This document shows, in pieces, positions 1,552 to 7,604 of a stretch of 34,193 bases of DNA (its first letter is position 1; the number at the start of each line of letters is the position of its first letter). Location: the NCBI GenBank assembly GCA_903933915.1, contig CAIZLW010000063.1, positions 1-34,193 on the forward strand, given 5' to 3'. The notes under the pieces were generated by a model. That model made no database searches and was not told where the DNA came from. It was given only the letters and a program-made list of their open reading frames with translations. The translations under genes were made by a program, and so were the position numbers. The DNA is from an uncultured beta proteobacterium. GTDB lineage: Bacteria > Pseudomonadota > Gammaproteobacteria > Burkholderiales > SG8-41.

Positions 1552-3675
1552 TCATGACACCGTCTGCTGCTTCAGCGTCACATAATCGACCTTGCCCGAG
1601 CCGAGCAGCGGCAGCGTGTCCACCTTCATTACCCGCCGCGCCACCGCCAGTTCCCGGATATTGAGCTGGCGCGCTGTATGCATCAGCGTAATGCGGTCGA
1701 GCTGCGGATCGGTCGTCAGCAGCACCGTGCTCTCTCCGGTATGGGTCATTTCCACCAGCGCGGCATGTTTGAAAGCGGGCGAAGCCTGATAAGCGATGTG
1801 CTCGACGCGCTCCAGCGACACCATTTCCCCGGCGATCTTGGCAAAACGCTTGACCCGGCCGTGGATGGTGACAAACCCGTCGTCATCGACACTGACCACA
1901 TCACCGGTGTTGTACCAGCCGGCGCCGAGTTCGGAACGCGGCGGCTGCAGCACGCCCGGCGCATCGGAGAACATATACCCCATCATCAGGTTGGGGCCGC
2001 GCACATGGAGCACGCCGCCCTGCTCGATACCCGGCACCGGAACGATGCGGTATTCAATGCCGGACAGGAAGCGCCCCACGCTGCCGTCGCGAAAGGCCAG
2101 CGGCGTATTCAGCGACATCGCAGGCCCGCATTCGGTGGCGCCGTAACCCTCGTAGACGCGCAGACCGAATTTGCTGAACCACAGTTTAGACACTTCCGGG
2201 TTGAGCTTTTCGCCGCCGGCAATGATGAAGCGGGCTCGGTAAAAATCGTACGGATGCGCCTGGCGCGCGTAATTGCCGAGGAAGGTGCTGGTGCCGAAGA
2301 TGTAGGTGCAGTCGCGGGTGTAGGCGTACTCCGGAACCACCTTGTAATGCAGCGGATTGGTATATAAAAACAGTCGCGTCCCCGACAGCAGCGGCATCAG
2401 CGTGCAGGCGATCAGGCCAAAGGTGTGATACATCGGCAGCGCATTGAGATATTTGTCGTCCGGCCCGAAATCAATCACCGCGCGCAGCTGCGCCATCACA
2501 CCAAGCATGGTGTCGTGGCTGATGACCACCCCTTTGGGCCGCGCCTCGGAACCCGAGGTGAACAGCACGATGGCCGGCGATGCGGGATCCTGCTGCGGCA
2601 GCGCGGCGCCCGGCCGCAGCAGCGCCTTGATGATCCACAGCTTGTCAGCCAGTGTCATCGTCTCGCGCAGGTCTTCAAGATAAACAATGCGGCAGCCCTC
2701 GAGGGCGGTCAGCAGATGCTCGAGATGTGCTGCCTGGATGAACGCGCGCGACGTGATGACGGTGCGCAGGACGCCCGCTACACAGGCAACGCGCAGCGCT
2801 TCGACGCCGCTGGAGTAGTTGAGCATGGCCGCCACCCGGCCGCGCGACGTCAGTCCGAACACCAGGCAGACGGTTGCGCCGAGATTGGGCAGCATCACGC
2901 CGACCCGTTCGCCGGGCGCGGTGAAGCGCGCGGTGAGCCGTCCCAGCGCCAAACTGCCTTTGAGCAGATCGCCGTAGGTATTCACCTGGCGGCGCAGATC
3001 TTCAATGATGCGGGTGCGGCGGCCATACAGCGCGGCGGCATCCACCAGCGCGTCAAACAGCGTGCGGCGCGGCGCAGCATTAGCCATCGATTGCTGGAGG
3101 ATGCGCAGCAGATCTTCCGACAACTGGCGGCGGCGCGCGCCGCCGGCGCCGCTGCGCGCCGGAAACCGCGTGGAGGGCTGCACCGCGAGGGTGACGCGCG
3201 GAAACCGGCGGCGCGGCCAGCGGTGGCTGGTGGCCGCCCAGCGCGACTGCAATGTGCCCTCAATACGCAACGGCACGATGTCGGCATCAGCCCGCGCCGC
3301 AATCACTGCCACCGCACCGTAAATCTTCATGGTGCTGCCGGTCGTCGTCACGCGATCCTGCGGAAACACCACCACCGGCCGTCCGGATCGCACGACCCGG
3401 ACCAGCCCCTTGACGGTGTAATCGCCAGCGATGCCGAGTTCAGCGCAATCCGCCACGCGACGCACCAGCCGCCCCAGCCGGTGACCGGACAGCGTCCTCG
3501 GCAGCACGATCAGCGGGTTGTCCGGCAGGAACAGGGCCACCAGCAGCGCGTCCAGCAGCGAATCATGGTTGGCGACGACCAGCGGACGACCGCGGGAGAG
3601 CTGACTGACATGCCCGGTCACCCGGACACCGAACAGCAGACCGAGCAGGAGGCGGAGTATGGCGCGCAGCAGCAC
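1552..3675 (-). CDS. Aas-like fusion: lysophospholipid acyltransferase plus acyl-ACP/acyl-CoA synthetase
   Basis: The protein is 707 residues, close to E. coli Aas (719). Residues 1-200 form a PlsC-type acyltransferase with the HX4D motif at H37-D42 (NHDSLLD) and an FPQDR motif at 104-108. Residues 205-707 form an AMP-forming ligase with P-loop TSGSEARPKG at 373-382, YGATE at 511-515, GD at 591-592 and catalytic lysine K695 in GSGK. Such fusions activate free fatty acids and transfer them to lysophospholipid. The predicted start is GTG at 3675, since no ATG lies between it and the upstream stop. It is divergent from an rpfF-like gene. In Xanthomonas the rpf cluster carries a fatty-acyl ligase (RpfB) beside RpfF, so a role in handling the same fatty acids is a reasonable inference. 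Confidence 0.85.
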   Translation of the reverse strand: MLLRAILRLLLGLLFGVRVTGHVSQLSRGRPLVVANHDSLLDALLVALFLPDNPLIVLPRTLSGHRLGRLVRRVADCAELGIAGDYTVKGLVRVVRSGRPVVVFPQDRVTTTGSTMKIYGAVAVIAARADADIVPLRIEGTLQSRWAATSHRWPRRRFPRVTLAVQPSTRFPARSGAGGARRRQLSEDLLRILQQSMANAAPRRTLFDALVDAAALYGRRTRIIEDLRRQVNTYGDLLKGSLALGRLTARFTAPGERVGVMLPNLGATVCLVFGLTSRGRVAAMLNYSSGVEALRVACVAGVLRTVITSRAFIQAAHLEHLLTALEGCRIVYLEDLRETMTLADKLWIIKALLRPGAALPQQDPASPAIVLFTSGSEARPKGVVISHDTMLGVMAQLRAVIDFGPDDKYLNALPMYHTFGLIACTLMPLLSGTRLFLYTNPLHYKVVPEYAYTRDCTYIFGTSTFLGNYARQAHPYDFYRARFIIAGGEKLNPEVSKLWFSKFGLRVYEGYGATECGPAMSLNTPLAFRDGSVGRFLSGIEYRIVPVPGIEQGGVLHVRGPNLMMGYMFSDAPGVLQPPRSELGAGWYNTGDVVSVDDDGFVTIHGRVKRFAKIAGEMVSLERVEHIAYQASPAFKHAALVEMTHTGESTVLLTTDPQLDRITLMHTARQLNIRELAVARRVMKVDTLPLLGSGKVDYVTLKQQTVS

Positions 3676-4033
3676 TGGCAGTTCCGTGGTTGGGCGGTTG
3701 AAGTCTGTTGTTGATCAGCGGCGTATGCAGCCACCGCTTGTAACGGCTCTGCATGCCCTAGTCAAACACTAGGTCATTACAGTCACACCGGTGTTGCCAA
3801 ATTGCCATAGCAGCAGAAATCCTTAGACAAAAAAACAAGCGCACAAAAATCTCCCGCACACCACTATATATGGCAAATTTACAGAATTAACTACTTGTTT
3901 TAGTGAGTATTTTTTAAAACCTCCCATTTTGTTAGATTTGCCTGTCGTTGCACCCCGACGCTTTAATCACCCCCGGGAACATCAGCTGTATCCCGCCAAC
4001 CTATTCATGTAAAACCATCGCAGGGGACCCACC
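3676..4033. promoter_or_regulatory. AT-rich divergent intergenic region between the Aas-like gene and rpfF
   Basis: These 358 bases carry no convincing gene and are markedly more AT-rich (about 3810-3940) than the surroundings, as expected for divergent promoters. Two operator-like symmetries are visible: CCTAGT-CAAAC-ACTAGG at 3757-3773, and TTGCCATA at 3802-3809 matched in inverse by TATGGCAA at 3869-3876. A TTTACA hexamer at 3878-3883 could be a -35 for rpfF, but I see no good -10 at the right distance. The neighbouring MerR-type regulator is a candidate binder (inference). Confidence 0.5.
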
Positions 4034-4960
4034 ATGGAAATGCAAGTTCCAGCCGCCGTCATTGACGTACACCACGCCGCCGTCAAACCCGATTTCAGCA
4101 GTGGCACCGAATTCCGCTTCTCACCGCAACTGCATGCCCGTTTCGACCGGCAGACCCGCGCGCTGTGGTCACGCTGGACGGCGGCACCGCGCCCCTGCTT
4201 CAACGCCGGCCTGCTCGCCGATATCCGCGCCTATTACAACTTCATCGCCGGCAGCGACGGGGTCATCGCCTGCGGCGACAGCGAAGAGCCCATTGATTAC
4301 GTGGTCCTCGCCTCGGGCATGCCCGGCGTATTCCAGCTCGGCGGCGACCTCGACCTGTTCCGCCAGAAAATCGACAATCGCGACCGCAATGCACTGACCA
4401 CCTACGGCCGCGCCTGCATCGATGTCCTCTACCGCAACTACCGCGGCCATGACCTGCCGCTGACCACCGTGTCGCTGGTGCAGGGCGAATGCCTGGGCGG
4501 CGGCTTCGAGGCTGCGTTGTCGAGCGACGTCATCGTCGCCGAAAAAAGTTCGCGCTTCGGTTTCCCGGAAATCCTGTTCAACCTGTTCCCGGGAATGGGC
4601 GCGTACTCCTTCCTTGACCGCAAGGTCGGCCAGCGCAAGGCCGAGGACATCATCTCGTCGGGCAAGATCTACAGCGCGGACGAAATGCTGGAGCTGGGTG
4701 TCATCGACGTCGTCGCTGAAGACGGCGGCGGTGAAACCGCCGTCAACGCCCTGATCAAGCAGCGCTCGCGTTCGCGCAACGGTCTTGCTGCGCTAGCTGC
4801 AGTGCGGCGCCGGGTACACCAGATCACCTACGAAGAACTGGAAGACGTCGTCGGCGTGTGGGTGGATGCTGCCCTGCGGCTGACCACACGAGACCTGAAG
4901 CTGATGCAACGGCTGGTGTCCCGCCAGAACGGCCTGCAGGAACCGGCGGTTATTCACTAA
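4034..4960 (+). CDS. rpfF: RpfF-family DSF (diffusible signal factor) synthase, crotonase superfamily
   Basis: The protein is 308 residues. It has the crotonase fold signatures of RpfF: RPCFN at 53-57, oxyanion-hole strand QLGGDLD at 101-107, GGGFEAAL at 155-162 and GFPEI-FNLFPGMG at 176-189. E159 and E179 correspond to the two catalytic glutamates of RpfF (E141/E161 in Xanthomonas), with the same 20-residue spacing. RpfF enzymes dehydrate 3-hydroxyacyl-ACP and release a cis-2-unsaturated fatty acid used as a cell-cell signal. AGGGGA lies about 8 bases before the ATG. The next gene on the same strand, 105 bases on, is a PAS-GGDEF-EAL protein, recalling the rpfF-rpfR pairing of Burkholderia. 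The chain length made cannot be read from sequence, and an ordinary enoyl-CoA hydratase role is less likely. Confidence 0.85.
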   Translation: MEMQVPAAVIDVHHAAVKPDFSSGTEFRFSPQLHARFDRQTRALWSRWTAAPRPCFNAGLLADIRAYYNFIAGSDGVIACGDSEEPIDYVVLASGMPGVFQLGGDLDLFRQKIDNRDRNALTTYGRACIDVLYRNYRGHDLPLTTVSLVQGECLGGGFEAALSSDVIVAEKSSRFGFPEILFNLFPGMGAYSFLDRKVGQRKAEDIISSGKIYSADEMLELGVIDVVAEDGGGETAVNALIKQRSRSRNGLAALAAVRRRVHQITYEELEDVVGVWVDAALRLTTRDLKLMQRLVSRQNGLQEPAVIH

Positions 4961-5065
4961 AACAGCTTTGATTCGCAGCCAGCCCTGCTCTGCTAGACTG
5001 ACCAGGCAGCGGCTGAACTTGACCCATGCCGGCCAGCAAAACCGGCGCAAATGAAAGCCTGACGC

Positions 5066-7000
5066 ATGCCCGAACTCGAACACTCGTACGCGATTGAACA
5101 AACCTCCCGGCTGCTGGGAATCTCCGCGCAGAAACTGCGCCGCTGGGATGAACAGGGCATCCTCGGCGCACTGCGCACCGAAGGCGGTCATCGCCGTTAT
5201 CCCAAGGAAGTCGTCGACCGGCTGGTCCTCGCCAATGGCGGCGGATTCGCCGAAAAAACCTCGCGCGAACTGGCAAGCGTCAAACGCACGCTGGCTGAAA
5301 AACGGCGGATCATCCAACTGCTGATCGAGAGCGAAGGCCGTTACCGCGATCTGGTCGAAACCTCCCACGACCTGATCTGGCAGACCGACGCTGAAGGCCG
5401 CTTCACCTACCTGAACGCCGCCGCCCACGAAATTTTCGGACTCACCCCGCCCGACCTGCTCGGACGCTGTTTTTTCAGTTTTGAAACCAACGGTTCGCAC
5501 GTGCCGAACCGGCGCTTCCTGTCGATGCTGCGGCGCAACGGCGAAGTGCAGAACCATGTGACCCACCTGACCACCGCCCGCGGCGAAGACCGCTGGATCG
5601 GCATCAACGCCCGCGTCACCCGCGACGAGAATGGCGGCATGCTCGGCATCCGCGGCACTGCCCGCGACGTCACCGACCAGCATCTGGCGATCCGCCGTGC
5701 AGAACACGTGGCGATGCACGATGCGCTGACCGATCTGCCGAACCGTTATGAACTGCAGCGCCAGGTCGAGAACGCACTGCAGAACAACCAGGTCGGCGCC
5801 ATCCTCCTGGTCGACATGGATCATTTCAAGCGCATCAACGCGGCATTCGGTCATGGCGCCGGCGAACAACTGGTGCTCGGCCTCTCCGGCGTGCTGCGCA
5901 GCGTCGCGCGCAGCCGCAACGGCGAACTGTTCCGCATCGGCGAAGACCAGTTCGTGCTGCATGTGGCGGAAGCGCTGCGCGAAGACGCGCAGACCACCGC
6001 CGCCGTGATGCTGGACGCCATACACAACTACCGGCTGGAGATGGCGCGCAACCGCGTGGTCTCCAACATCACCGCCTCGATTGGCATTGCCATGTATCCC
6101 TTCCATGGCAACGACTGGCCGGCGCTGCTGGCCGCGGTTGATGCCGCCACCCACCAGGCCAAGGACGAGGGCCGCAACCGCGTGGTGCTGTTCAATCCGG
6201 CCTCCGACTCCCTGCGCGCCAATCACCGGCGCACCCACTGGTCGCGGCTGATCACCGAAGCGATCGAACAGGACGAAATCGCGCTCTACGTGCAGTCGGC
6301 GATGAATATCCGTACCGGCGCACCGATCCACCACGAAATCTTCCTGCGCATCCGCGACGAGCATGGCGCCTGGGCTGATCAGCAGCAGTTCATGGGCACT
6401 GCGGAATCACTGGGTTTCGCCCCCGCACTTGACCAGCGTGTGATCGCCCGCGTGCTGACCCATATCCACGAGCAGGGCAAGAATTCGCCGCTGCGCTATG
6501 CCGTCAATGTATCGGCACCATCCATTGCCGATCCAAACTGGGTGCGCGAACTGGCCGACATCATCCGCACCTCCGACGTTCCCGGAAACCGGCTGATTTT
6601 CGAAATCAGTGAACGCGCAGCAATGGAAAACATCGATGCCACCGCAGCCTTCATCGAACAGATGCGCGCGCTCGGCGCGCGCGCCGCGCTCGATGACTTC
6701 GGCACCGGCTTCAGCTCGTTCTATTATTTGAAGCGCTTCGACGTGGATTACCTGAAAATCAGCGGCGCGTTCACCCAGGATCTGAGTGACAACGAGGAAA
6801 GCAGGGTATTCGTCAAGGCCGTCAACGATCTCGCTCGCAACCTCAAACGTCAGGTCATCGCCAAAGGCGTCGAAACCGAATTGATGGTGAAACTGCTGAA
6901 GGAAGCCGGCGCGCTCTACGCTCAGGGCCATTACTTCCAGCCGGCCGCACCACTGGGCACAGCGATACCAGCGCCCGGCCGCAAATCCTCGCGCGGTTGA
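5066..7000 (+). CDS. MerR-type HTH / PAS / degenerate GGDEF / EAL regulator (RpfR-like receptor with DNA-binding head)
   Basis: The protein is 644 residues. Residues 8-54 form a MerR-like winged helix (AIEQTSRLLGIS, KLRRWDEQGIL, EGGHRRY). A short helical linker follows at about 60-90, then PAS at 92-205, GGDEF at 214-375 and EAL at 392-628. The GGDEF signature is GEDQF (292-296) and the I-site position reads RNGE (284-287), so diguanylate cyclase activity is unlikely. The EAL domain keeps E424, N481, E513, D543, D544, K564 and Q620, but EAL reads EIF, KID reads KIS (S566) and EGVE reads KGVE (K600), so phosphodiesterase activity is doubtful. The PAS-GGDEF-EAL order and the rpfF neighbour match RpfR, the DSF receptor of Burkholderia. 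The HTH in place of the usual N terminus suggests a signal-responsive transcription factor (inference). Confidence 0.87.
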   Translation: MPELEHSYAIEQTSRLLGISAQKLRRWDEQGILGALRTEGGHRRYPKEVVDRLVLANGGGFAEKTSRELASVKRTLAEKRRIIQLLIESEGRYRDLVETSHDLIWQTDAEGRFTYLNAAAHEIFGLTPPDLLGRCFFSFETNGSHVPNRRFLSMLRRNGEVQNHVTHLTTARGEDRWIGINARVTRDENGGMLGIRGTARDVTDQHLAIRRAEHVAMHDALTDLPNRYELQRQVENALQNNQVGAILLVDMDHFKRINAAFGHGAGEQLVLGLSGVLRSVARSRNGELFRIGEDQFVLHVAEALREDAQTTAAVMLDAIHNYRLEMARNRVVSNITASIGIAMYPFHGNDWPALLAAVDAATHQAKDEGRNRVVLFNPASDSLRANHRRTHWSRLITEAIEQDEIALYVQSAMNIRTGAPIHHEIFLRIRDEHGAWADQQQFMGTAESLGFAPALDQRVIARVLTHIHEQGKNSPLRYAVNVSAPSIADPNWVRELADIIRTSDVPGNRLIFEISERAAMENIDATAAFIEQMRALGARAALDDFGTGFSSFYYLKRFDVDYLKISGAFTQDLSDNEESRVFVKAVNDLARNLKRQVIAKGVETELMVKLLKEAGALYAQGHYFQPAAPLGTAIPAPGRKSSRG

Positions 7001-7043
7001 TCATGCGGCGCGCCGCAAGGCGCTGCCGCGACAGCACGGCGTA

Positions 7044-7604
7044 TTACCACTCTCCCCGGCGGATCTTCTCCGCCCACAGCAGACCGGTGACGGCCTTGGC
7101 TTCGGTGATGGTGCCGTCGCGCACCCAGTCCAGCGCCTGATCGAGTCGCACGATCATCACTTCCAGAAACTCGCCTTCATCGAGCGCACTGCCGACCTGC
7201 TGCAGGTCGCACGCCAGGAACAGCTCGATGCATTCATCGGCATAACCGATGCAGGGATGCAGCGTGGCCAGATGCCGCCATTCTTGCGCTGTGTAACCGC
7301 ATTCTTCACGCAGTTCACGCTGAGCCGTGGCCAGCGGCGCTTCGCCGGCATCGATTTTTCCGGCGGGCAGTTCGATGAAGTGTCGCCCCAGCGGATAGCG
7401 GAACTGGCGTTCCAGCAGGATCGTATCCGGGTCAGGCTGGGCAACAATCATCGCCGCGCCGGGGTGGTGGATGTATTCGCGGGTGGCACGGCTGCCATCC
7501 GGCAGATTGACGGTATCCCGCCGCACCTTGAGCAGTCGCCCCTCGAACACCGATTCCGAGGACACCAGGGTTTCGGTGAAATCAGCGGGGTCGTGCGGCT
7601 TCAT
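7044..7604 (-). CDS. NUDIX hydrolase, ADP-ribose pyrophosphatase type
   Basis: The 186-residue protein contains a perfect Nudix box, G-x5-E-x7-REUxEExGU, spanning residues 82-104 (G82, E88, R96-E97, E100-E101, G103). An upstream GAAMIVAQ strand and the ERQFRYPLG segment are typical of ADP-ribose pyrophosphatases, which hydrolyse ADP-ribose to AMP and ribose 5-phosphate. It starts 9 bases after the DUF2818 stop and is the last gene of the nuo unit, an arrangement common in betaproteobacteria. NADH turnover by complex I and cleanup of NAD-derived ADP-ribose make a plausible functional link (inference). It converges on the PAS-GGDEF-EAL gene across 43 bases. Confidence 0.88.
   Translation of the reverse strand: MKPHDPADFTETLVSSESVFEGRLLKVRRDTVNLPDGSRATREYIHHPGAAMIVAQPDPDTILLERQFRYPLGRHFIELPAGKIDAGEAPLATAQRELREECGYTAQEWRHLATLHPCIGYADECIELFLACDLQQVGSALDEGEFLEVMIVRLDQALDWVRDGTITEAKAVTGLLWAEKIRRGEW

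Follow-up and report, generated by a model that had tools for sequence, protein, structure and literature searches.

We analysed a 34,193-nucleotide stretch of DNA from an uncultured beta proteobacterium of the order Burkholderiales (contig CAIZLW010000063.1 of assembly GCA_903933915.1; hereafter the window), which is contig C63 of a 3.8-Mb draft genome. On its forward strand, a gene for a crotonase resembling RpfF, the synthase of diffusible signal factor (DSF) fatty acids, is followed by a gene for a protein (hereafter the hybrid) that joins a MerR-type DNA-binding head to PAS, GGDEF and EAL domains, and a gene resembling aas, for an acyl-acyl carrier protein (acyl-ACP) synthetase, diverges from the pair. 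An initial annotation had reported the crotonase and the hybrid in this order and on this strand, an observation that is confirmed here, and had proposed that a DSF-type signal is read by the PAS domain and passed directly to DNA, an interpretation that, taken as a whole, is partly supported. Comparison with related sequences makes it very probable that the hybrid acts as a one-component transcription factor, and we think it rather probable that the three genes form a fatty-acid signalling module whose receptor is itself the transcription factor. The transcription-factor half of this explanation is well supported by the comparative evidence, and the ligand step is its weakest link. The features concerned are listed below; L-numbers and G-numbers in the text are handles for loci and genomes, respectively, of the relatives compared.

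1552-3675, - strand: aas-like gene (acyltransferase and AMP-binding acyl-ACP/CoA synthetase by Pfam), divergent from rpfF
3738-3765, - strand: promoter-like block ahead of the divergent aas gene (TTGACT, 16 bp, TTACAA), largely kept in an 18-row upstream alignment
3917-3939, + strand: candidate operator of the hybrid, a 23-bp dyad, AAACCTCCCA TTT TGTTAGATTT
3938-3967, + strand: predicted rpfF promoter, -35 box TTGCCT (3938-3943, overlapping the dyad), -10 box TTTAAT (3962-3967), spacer of 18 bp
4034-4960, + strand: RpfF-like crotonase, putative DSF-type synthase, E159/E179
5066-7000, + strand: MerR-PAS-GGDEF-EAL hybrid regulator
5087-5227, + strand: MerR-type winged-helix head (residues 8-54), LRRW and GGHRRY unchanged in all 39 rows
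5258-5359, + strand: long helix between head and PAS (residues 65-98), near-invariant from residue 76 onwards
5336-5680, + strand: PAS domain (residues 91-205), the most conserved of all domains across the 39 rows
5699-6190, + strand: GGDEF domain (residues 212-375), degenerate motif GEDQF
6248-6949, + strand: EAL domain (residues 395-628), AKGVE replacing AEGVE

Pairing of the hybrid with an RpfF-type synthase

Hybrids were sought in 399 sampled genomes of the order by matching the head-PAS region at 1e-30 or better, and were present in 46 of them, representing 11 families. In 39 of the 46 genomes an RpfF-like crotonase is encoded on the same strand no more than 600 bp upstream, a count that takes in G177 (no head by the MerR model, the PAS match being separated by a gap of 579) and also G247, with broken frames and a crotonase fragment of 69 bits. 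The pairing is therefore non-random, a frequency of 39/46 ruling out chance neighbours, and the architecture adjoins rpfF in other genomes as well. Among sampled genomes of the class (369) and of the phylum (398), no head-plus-PAS protein came from outside the order; the only such matches were in order members, namely the window's own genome and G044. Eight class genomes matched the PAS domain, one of which (G680) aligned from residue 11, yet the MerR model found no head there.

The 308-residue crotonase matches Pfam ECH_1 and NCBIfam PRK08788 (351 bits, cut-off 177), and scores 203 bits against the NCBIfam RpfF model NF053515, below the equivalog cut-off of 550. Since that cut-off was reached in none of 300 genomes of the order, RpfR-linked-type loci G171, G313 and G315 included, we regard the model as narrow. 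The top four PDB matches (5fus, 6dgn, 7zq7 and 3m6m; E 1e-51 to 3e-47), two of which carry the depositor name RpfF, are followed in fifth place by an ordinary hydratase (E 3e-15). A tree of 154 rows, built by a quick method and with long branches flagged, splits 142 RpfF-type sequences from 12 hydratases of the window's own genome (out of its 16 other PF00378 matches) with support 100. The crotonase falls in the RpfF group, as the initial annotation had supposed, and identity as a plain enoyl-CoA hydratase is ruled out by the tree and the PDB ranking. The pair of Glu residues at 20-residue spacing on which that annotation had relied is present (E159 and E179), and both residues occur in all 64 rows of at least 330 bits, in all 74 other RpfF-like rows and in all three PDB rows. 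Because hydratases of the window's genome partly share both positions, with Glu in 6 and 4 of the 12, the pair alone is not diagnostic; it is by family evidence, and not by Glu spacing, that the crotonase is assigned as an RpfF-type synthase. Its product is probably a cis-2-unsaturated, DSF-type fatty acid.

Crotonases adjoining a hybrid form a single clade of 68 rows (Shimodaira-Hasegawa-like approximate likelihood ratio test, SH-aLRT, 100) nested in the 142-row RpfF group. Also in the clade are two loci that have no hybrid, L048 and L066, and one, L069, whose contig stops within rpfF; the divergent members are L066 and L187. A divergent aas gene lies upstream in 45 of 49 crotonase loci of the hybrid clade versus none of 75 other crotonase loci, and by this gene order it is part of the module. 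For this count the clade was taken as loci of at least 334 bits plus L069, with some contigs fetched twice, and the 75 others take in two loci that the tree places in the clade, L187 and L066 (which has just 9 bp of upstream sequence), as well as a few more with less than 1 kb upstream. The aas-like gene of the window scores 792 bits against NCBIfam PRK08043, under the cut-off of 886. L048 retains aas and rpfF, with a complex I gene in the expected position of the hybrid.

At L047, an open frame of 553 residues without Pfam match (5634-7292), which may be no gene, lies between rpfF and the hybrid. L039 and L048 come from metagenome bins titled Bordetella parapertussis whose genes are near the window's genus or family, and the species label is probably wrong. 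A Methylibium plasmid carries an RpfF-like crotonase (L150:4947-5897) in a different context, between genes for a ferritin and for an iron-containing redox enzyme, and a Methylobacterium plasmid carries a crotonase with a convergent gene for a GGDEF-EAL protein whose N-terminus looks unlike that of RpfR (L149:5902-9183).

Domain conservation in the hybrid

The hybrid has 644 residues and passes the Pfam cut-offs for MerR (10-45, with both PF00376 and PF13411), PAS (92-202), GGDEF (216-372) and EAL (396-626). Across 39 full-length homologues, head residues L24, R25, R26, W27, G31, L33, A35 and R37 and the GGHRRY stretch at 40-45 are invariant (39/39), which at the level of sequence bears out the MerR-type head originally proposed. 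Mean pairwise identity over the 39 rows is highest in the PAS domain (76%) and the head (72%), followed by GGDEF (60%) and EAL (58%).

The motif of the GGDEF domain reads GEDQF in the window, and its two variable positions are intact in 22 of the 39 rows and GEDQ/R-like in 17. In the EAL motif AEGVE, the first Glu, which we take to be a catalytic residue of the domain, is replaced by Lys (Lys600) in the window. AKGVE is shared by 18 other rows, Glu stands at this position in 20 of the 39, and the window protein lacks the catalytically complete EAL domain of a PdeL-type trigger phosphodiesterase. The 19 Lys600 rows, of which 17 come from the window's genus and the other two are L061 and L063, show identities of 87% (PAS), 82% (head), 71% (GGDEF) and 68% (EAL); the 20 Glu600 rows show 73, 76, 67 and 70%, respectively. 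Because GGDEF and EAL of the window's genus have lost motif residues, whereas the head and the PAS domain are preserved throughout, the enzyme functions in cyclic di-GMP (c-di-GMP) turnover have probably been lost there.

An AlphaFold2 model of the hybrid (predicted local distance difference test, pLDDT, 81; predicted template modelling score, pTM, 0.44) comprises a winged helix (2-57), a helix (65-98), PAS (102-201), a second helix (203-217) and then GGDEF and EAL, and it is most similar in fold to PA0861, a PAS-GGDEF-EAL protein. A model restricted to the N-terminal part is weak (pLDDT 67), too weak for ligand placement.

A dyad at the rpfF promoter

An alignment of 18 upstream regions of the window's genus contains a conserved block about 95-120 bp before rpfF, which in other genera becomes a dyad, AAATCTAACA-N3-TGTTAGATTT. 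The 23-bp consensus is AAAYCTANCA-N3-TGTTAGATTT, and the window copy lies at 3917-3939. Counting upstream regions as distinct by their last 140 bp, the dyad occurs in 58 of 63 with at most two of 16 scored positions off; the five without it are L048, which has no hybrid, L058 and L060, in which the hybrid is split between frames, and L181 and L230. A dyad score of at least 14/18 was reached by 117 of 128 hybrid-clade upstream regions versus 1 of 75 others and 29 of 2560 shuffles (the 128 and 75 contain repeated loci; 63 and 61 are distinct), and the single scoring region among the others is that of L069, itself a clade member with rpfF at its contig end.

The base following the dyad is G in 57 of the 58 sites, yielding TTGnnn, and a -10-like hexamer (at least 4/6) occurs at one fixed offset, with a 17-bp spacer, in 48 of the 58, compared with 10 or fewer at any of the other offsets tested. 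The window's own spacer is 18 bp. A classical MerR operator sits inside a 19-20 bp promoter spacer; this is not the arrangement found here, where the dyad overlaps the -35 box from the upstream side. The initial annotation had named 3676-4033 as the region in which to look for binding by the hybrid, and an operator-like dyad is indeed present there, with copies elsewhere in hybrid-bearing genomes. We infer that the dyad is a candidate operator of the hybrid, and binding of the hybrid to it appears quite likely on this comparative basis. We lean, with some reserve, towards activation rather than repression, given poor promoters and a dyad whose centre would fall at about -45.

Distal sites and candidate targets

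With three mismatches allowed, the window's genome holds two exact sites, the one at 3917-3939 and another, beside a thiolase gene, on contig C47, and two further sites with 2 and 3 mismatches. When 61 genomes, those of the window and of 60 relatives, were searched allowing one mismatch, a site was present in 30 of 34 hybrid-bearing genomes versus 1 of 27 others (G029), and a reversed-pattern control found none in the 61. Sites away from rpfF were present in 26 of the 34 versus 1 of the 27 (Fisher p 3e-9, uncorrected for kinship), where distal and hybrid-bearing status were read by hand and G061 counts as hybrid-less by its absence from the hybrid matches. Two congeners of 98-99% completeness (G012 and G017) have neither hybrid nor sites. 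A broader pattern applied to 63 chosen genomes gave sites in 23 of 29 with hybrid and rpfF, in 3 of 7 with a hybrid and no adjacent rpfF, and in none of one (G177), as well as in 4 of 26 without a hybrid, three of whose four sites look unlike the motif; the reversed control gave 2 of 63. A -10-like hexamer stands at the same offset in 24 of 122 oriented distal half-sites versus 0 to 8 at other offsets.

The 99 distal sites include one rpfF upstream region (L305), leaving 98. The gene of a conserved 126-residue protein is a candidate target at 14 loci, the site lying 60-67 bp before its mechanically assigned start in nine of them, and a thiolase gene lies on the other side of the site at all three loci tested. 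This protein (e.g. L317:3052-3429, L269:7232-7519) matched no Pfam or NCBIfam family, and in the window's genome the match to it is limited to residues 63-125. At 8 of the 98 sites (L302, L306, L307, L315, L318, L322, L328 and L404) a GGDEF/EAL gene begins no more than 450 bp away; the binomial chance of 8/99 is 8e-6, 9e-4 or 0.01 at a background of 1, 2 or 3%.

The orthologous GGDEF-EAL proteins at L318, L307, L315 and L328 (81-91% identical) have, as judged by eye, a degenerate-looking GGDEF motif and kept EAL residues. In G177, G302 and G243, which belong to one genus (L187:4105-6237, L235 and L236), the family MerR model finds no head and no dyad motif is present; a divergent helix-turn-helix-like head was read in G177 only, and a switch of DNA specificity in this genus is possible.

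Relation to RpfR and other known systems

The initial annotation had matched the hybrid to the DSF receptor RpfR. The PAS-GGDEF-EAL order of RpfR is present, but kinship of the PAS domains is not supported: identity to RpfR-type proteins is 25-31%, largely across GGDEF-EAL, with blastp alignments beginning at residue 86 or beyond, and the alignments place the hybrid PAS nearer (35-43%) to a PAS group in proteins of about 1000 residues from other orders. No rpfF match was found beside these longer relatives in the fetched stretches (about 1.5 kb either side of the match). RpfR contacts Burkholderia DSF (BDSF) via S169, N172, Y183, R187 and N202 (PMC6361424); aligned by eye, the hybrid has N148, F151, Q162, T166 and, depending on the gap, N181 or A182. 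An RpfF-interaction domain was not detected in the hybrid, whose residues 1-90 are taken up by the MerR head and helix. A LOV-type PAS was also considered, LOV domains being among the fold matches, but the LOV motif GXNCRFLQ is absent from the sequence. The hybrid PAS may have a different fatty-acid pocket, and it may equally possibly have a ligand other than the RpfF product.

A crotonase-type synthase adjoins a PAS-GGDEF-EAL protein also in the RpfF/RpfR (BDSF) systems of Burkholderia and Cronobacter. Unlike the hybrid, RpfR begins with an RpfF-interaction domain where the hybrid has its DNA-binding head, and it has another PAS, a gene convergent with rpfF, and active phosphodiesterase (PMC6361424), and in Burkholderia it reaches DNA through separate partner regulators such as BerB (PMC9684580). 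The RpfF-RpfC/G system of Xanthomonas shares RpfF, and the neighbouring gene rpfB, for a fatty acyl ligase, parallels aas in the window, but its receptor is a two-component system and not a one-component transcription factor (PMC4504480). A c-di-GMP domain is fused to a DNA-binding head in PdeL of Escherichia coli, an EAL protein that controls its own promoter and recognizes an imperfect palindrome; its head is of LuxR type, it is an active phosphodiesterase, and no PAS, GGDEF or synthase partner is mentioned for it (PMC5052742). In the BluR/BluF and MlrA/DgcM/PdeR systems of E. coli, EAL and GGDEF proteins control MerR-like factors by contact, the EAL domain of BluF is degenerate (PMC3509220, PMC5052742), and the site bound by the repressor BluR takes in the -35 box together with some of the spacer (PMC3509220). 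These are separate polypeptides with light or c-di-GMP input and no synthase, whereas the functions are joined in one chain here. FadD1 of Pseudomonas aeruginosa is a DSF-family receptor that binds promoters itself, but it is a fatty acid-CoA ligase with a leucine zipper, unrelated to the hybrid (PMC12754631). A review names RpfC/G and RpfR as the two core DSF perception pathways (PMC4504480). We found no description of rpfF paired with a MerR-headed protein in the PMC literature consulted, from which most subscription papers are absent.

Proposed mechanism and alternative explanations

Pairing, clade, head conservation, dyad, promoter geometry and the co-occurrence of dyad and hybrid are properties of the sequences compared, and the module that we favour is built upon them. 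RpfF would convert acyl-ACP to a cis-2-unsaturated, DSF-type fatty acid, and Aas would reactivate free fatty acids, a recycling role like that attributed to RpfB. The hybrid would combine signal sensing and DNA binding in one chain, and its long helix, PAS domain and GGDEF-EAL part probably hold it together as a dimer. Its MerR-type head would bind the 23-bp dyad at the -35 box of a sigma-70-like promoter, leading to autoregulation of rpfF, and would meet the same dyad at a small number of further genes, including those of c-di-GMP enzymes and the conserved 126-residue gene beside a thiolase. For binding of the RpfF product by the PAS domain we see an even chance, and it is somewhat doubtful that in the window's genus the EAL domain still binds c-di-GMP as a second input. 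Tentatively, and falling a little short of even chances, the system may constitute a third DSF circuit resembling LuxI/LuxR, in which a synthase and one cytoplasmic receptor and transcription factor that autoregulates it merge a fatty-acid signal with c-di-GMP, the enzyme activities having been shed in one genus. If true, this would add a one-component type to DSF perception across 11 families of Burkholderiales, with a predicted operator and targets that are directly testable, and the natural series from complete to degenerate GGDEF/EAL motifs within one orthologous transcription factor would bear on how c-di-GMP enzymes become receptors.

Several observations weigh against this explanation. 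Seven of the 46 hybrids have no adjacent rpfF (G065, G314, G1061, G119, G110, G302 and G243); all but G1061, which lay outside the 300-genome RpfF search, fall outside the 54 genomes with an RpfF match in that search, their inclusion in it being deduced from handle numbers. Hybrids without rpfF also lack the dyad before their own gene. L066, a member of the partnered clade, has no hybrid within 4.5 kb downstream, L062 keeps the dyad though its hybrid is split near the end, G029 has sites and no detected hybrid, and 6 of the 29 genomes with hybrid and rpfF have no exact site of the broader pattern. Of the five RpfR residues that contact the fatty acid, the hybrid retains no more than one, according to alignments read by eye. 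Among Glu600 rows the EAL domain (70%) is almost as constrained as PAS (73%). Among the eight c-di-GMP targets, four represent a single orthologous gene shared by four congeners, and in the window's genome, where 11 GGDEF proteins were found, no site was found at a c-di-GMP gene. Finally, the motif was defined on rpfF upstream regions before the search, and the distal sites and the fixed -10 offset are therefore the only independent tests.

Some of these points would fit a hybrid that is a DNA-binding c-di-GMP effector or PdeL-like trigger phosphodiesterase, with a PAS domain reading flavin, redox state, light or a metabolite, and with rpfF merely a target. Such a role would agree with a PAS domain nearer to other GGDEF-EAL proteins than to RpfR, with the LOV/flavin and haem PAS domains among fold matches of the weak head-plus-PAS model, with Cys135, invariant in 39 of 39 rows, with the well-conserved EAL domain of the 20 rows that have Glu in place of Lys600, with the c-di-GMP genes among the targets and with the hybrids that lack rpfF. 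We nevertheless consider it unlikely, as the window's genus has lost the GGDEF/EAL motif residues and kept head and PAS, and pairing with one synthase clade is far tighter than would be expected of an ordinary target gene. The same c-di-GMP targets speak against a module of fatty-acid homeostasis, in which the crotonase, a thioesterase-like RpfF, would make a product for lipid or storage metabolism and not a signal, and the hybrid would be a fatty-acid-sensing regulator alongside aas. This reading draws on the aas neighbour and on the one conserved target beside thiolase and other acyl-CoA genes, but the crotonase clade is nested in the RpfF group, and those members of the group that have been studied are signal synthases (PMC4504480); we hold this reading to be improbable.

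The dyad could also serve some other, unlinked regulator as its operator, such as a fatty-acid repressor, with the hybrid head acting elsewhere or nowhere, but we consider this very improbable. The sites of G029 and the dyad-less upstream regions of hybrids without rpfF could be accommodated in this way, but the dyad otherwise tracks the hybrid: congeners G012 and G017 are without both, the rpfF gene without a hybrid (L048) has no dyad, and the motif is missing from G177, G302 and G243, in which the MerR model finds no head (a head being read only in G177).

Further observations

Hybrids without an adjacent rpfF (L237, L238, L239, L231 and L233) are possible orphan receptors, comparable to LuxR solos. 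The hybrid of G119 has GSDH-like and HSP90 genes upstream, and an HSP90 gene lies beside that of G314. Downstream of the hybrid, the minus strand of the window carries a nudix gene and respiratory complex I genes. At 220-1499 of the window, a cytochrome c' gene is convergent with a cytochrome b561-type gene, a pair unrelated to the rpfF module.

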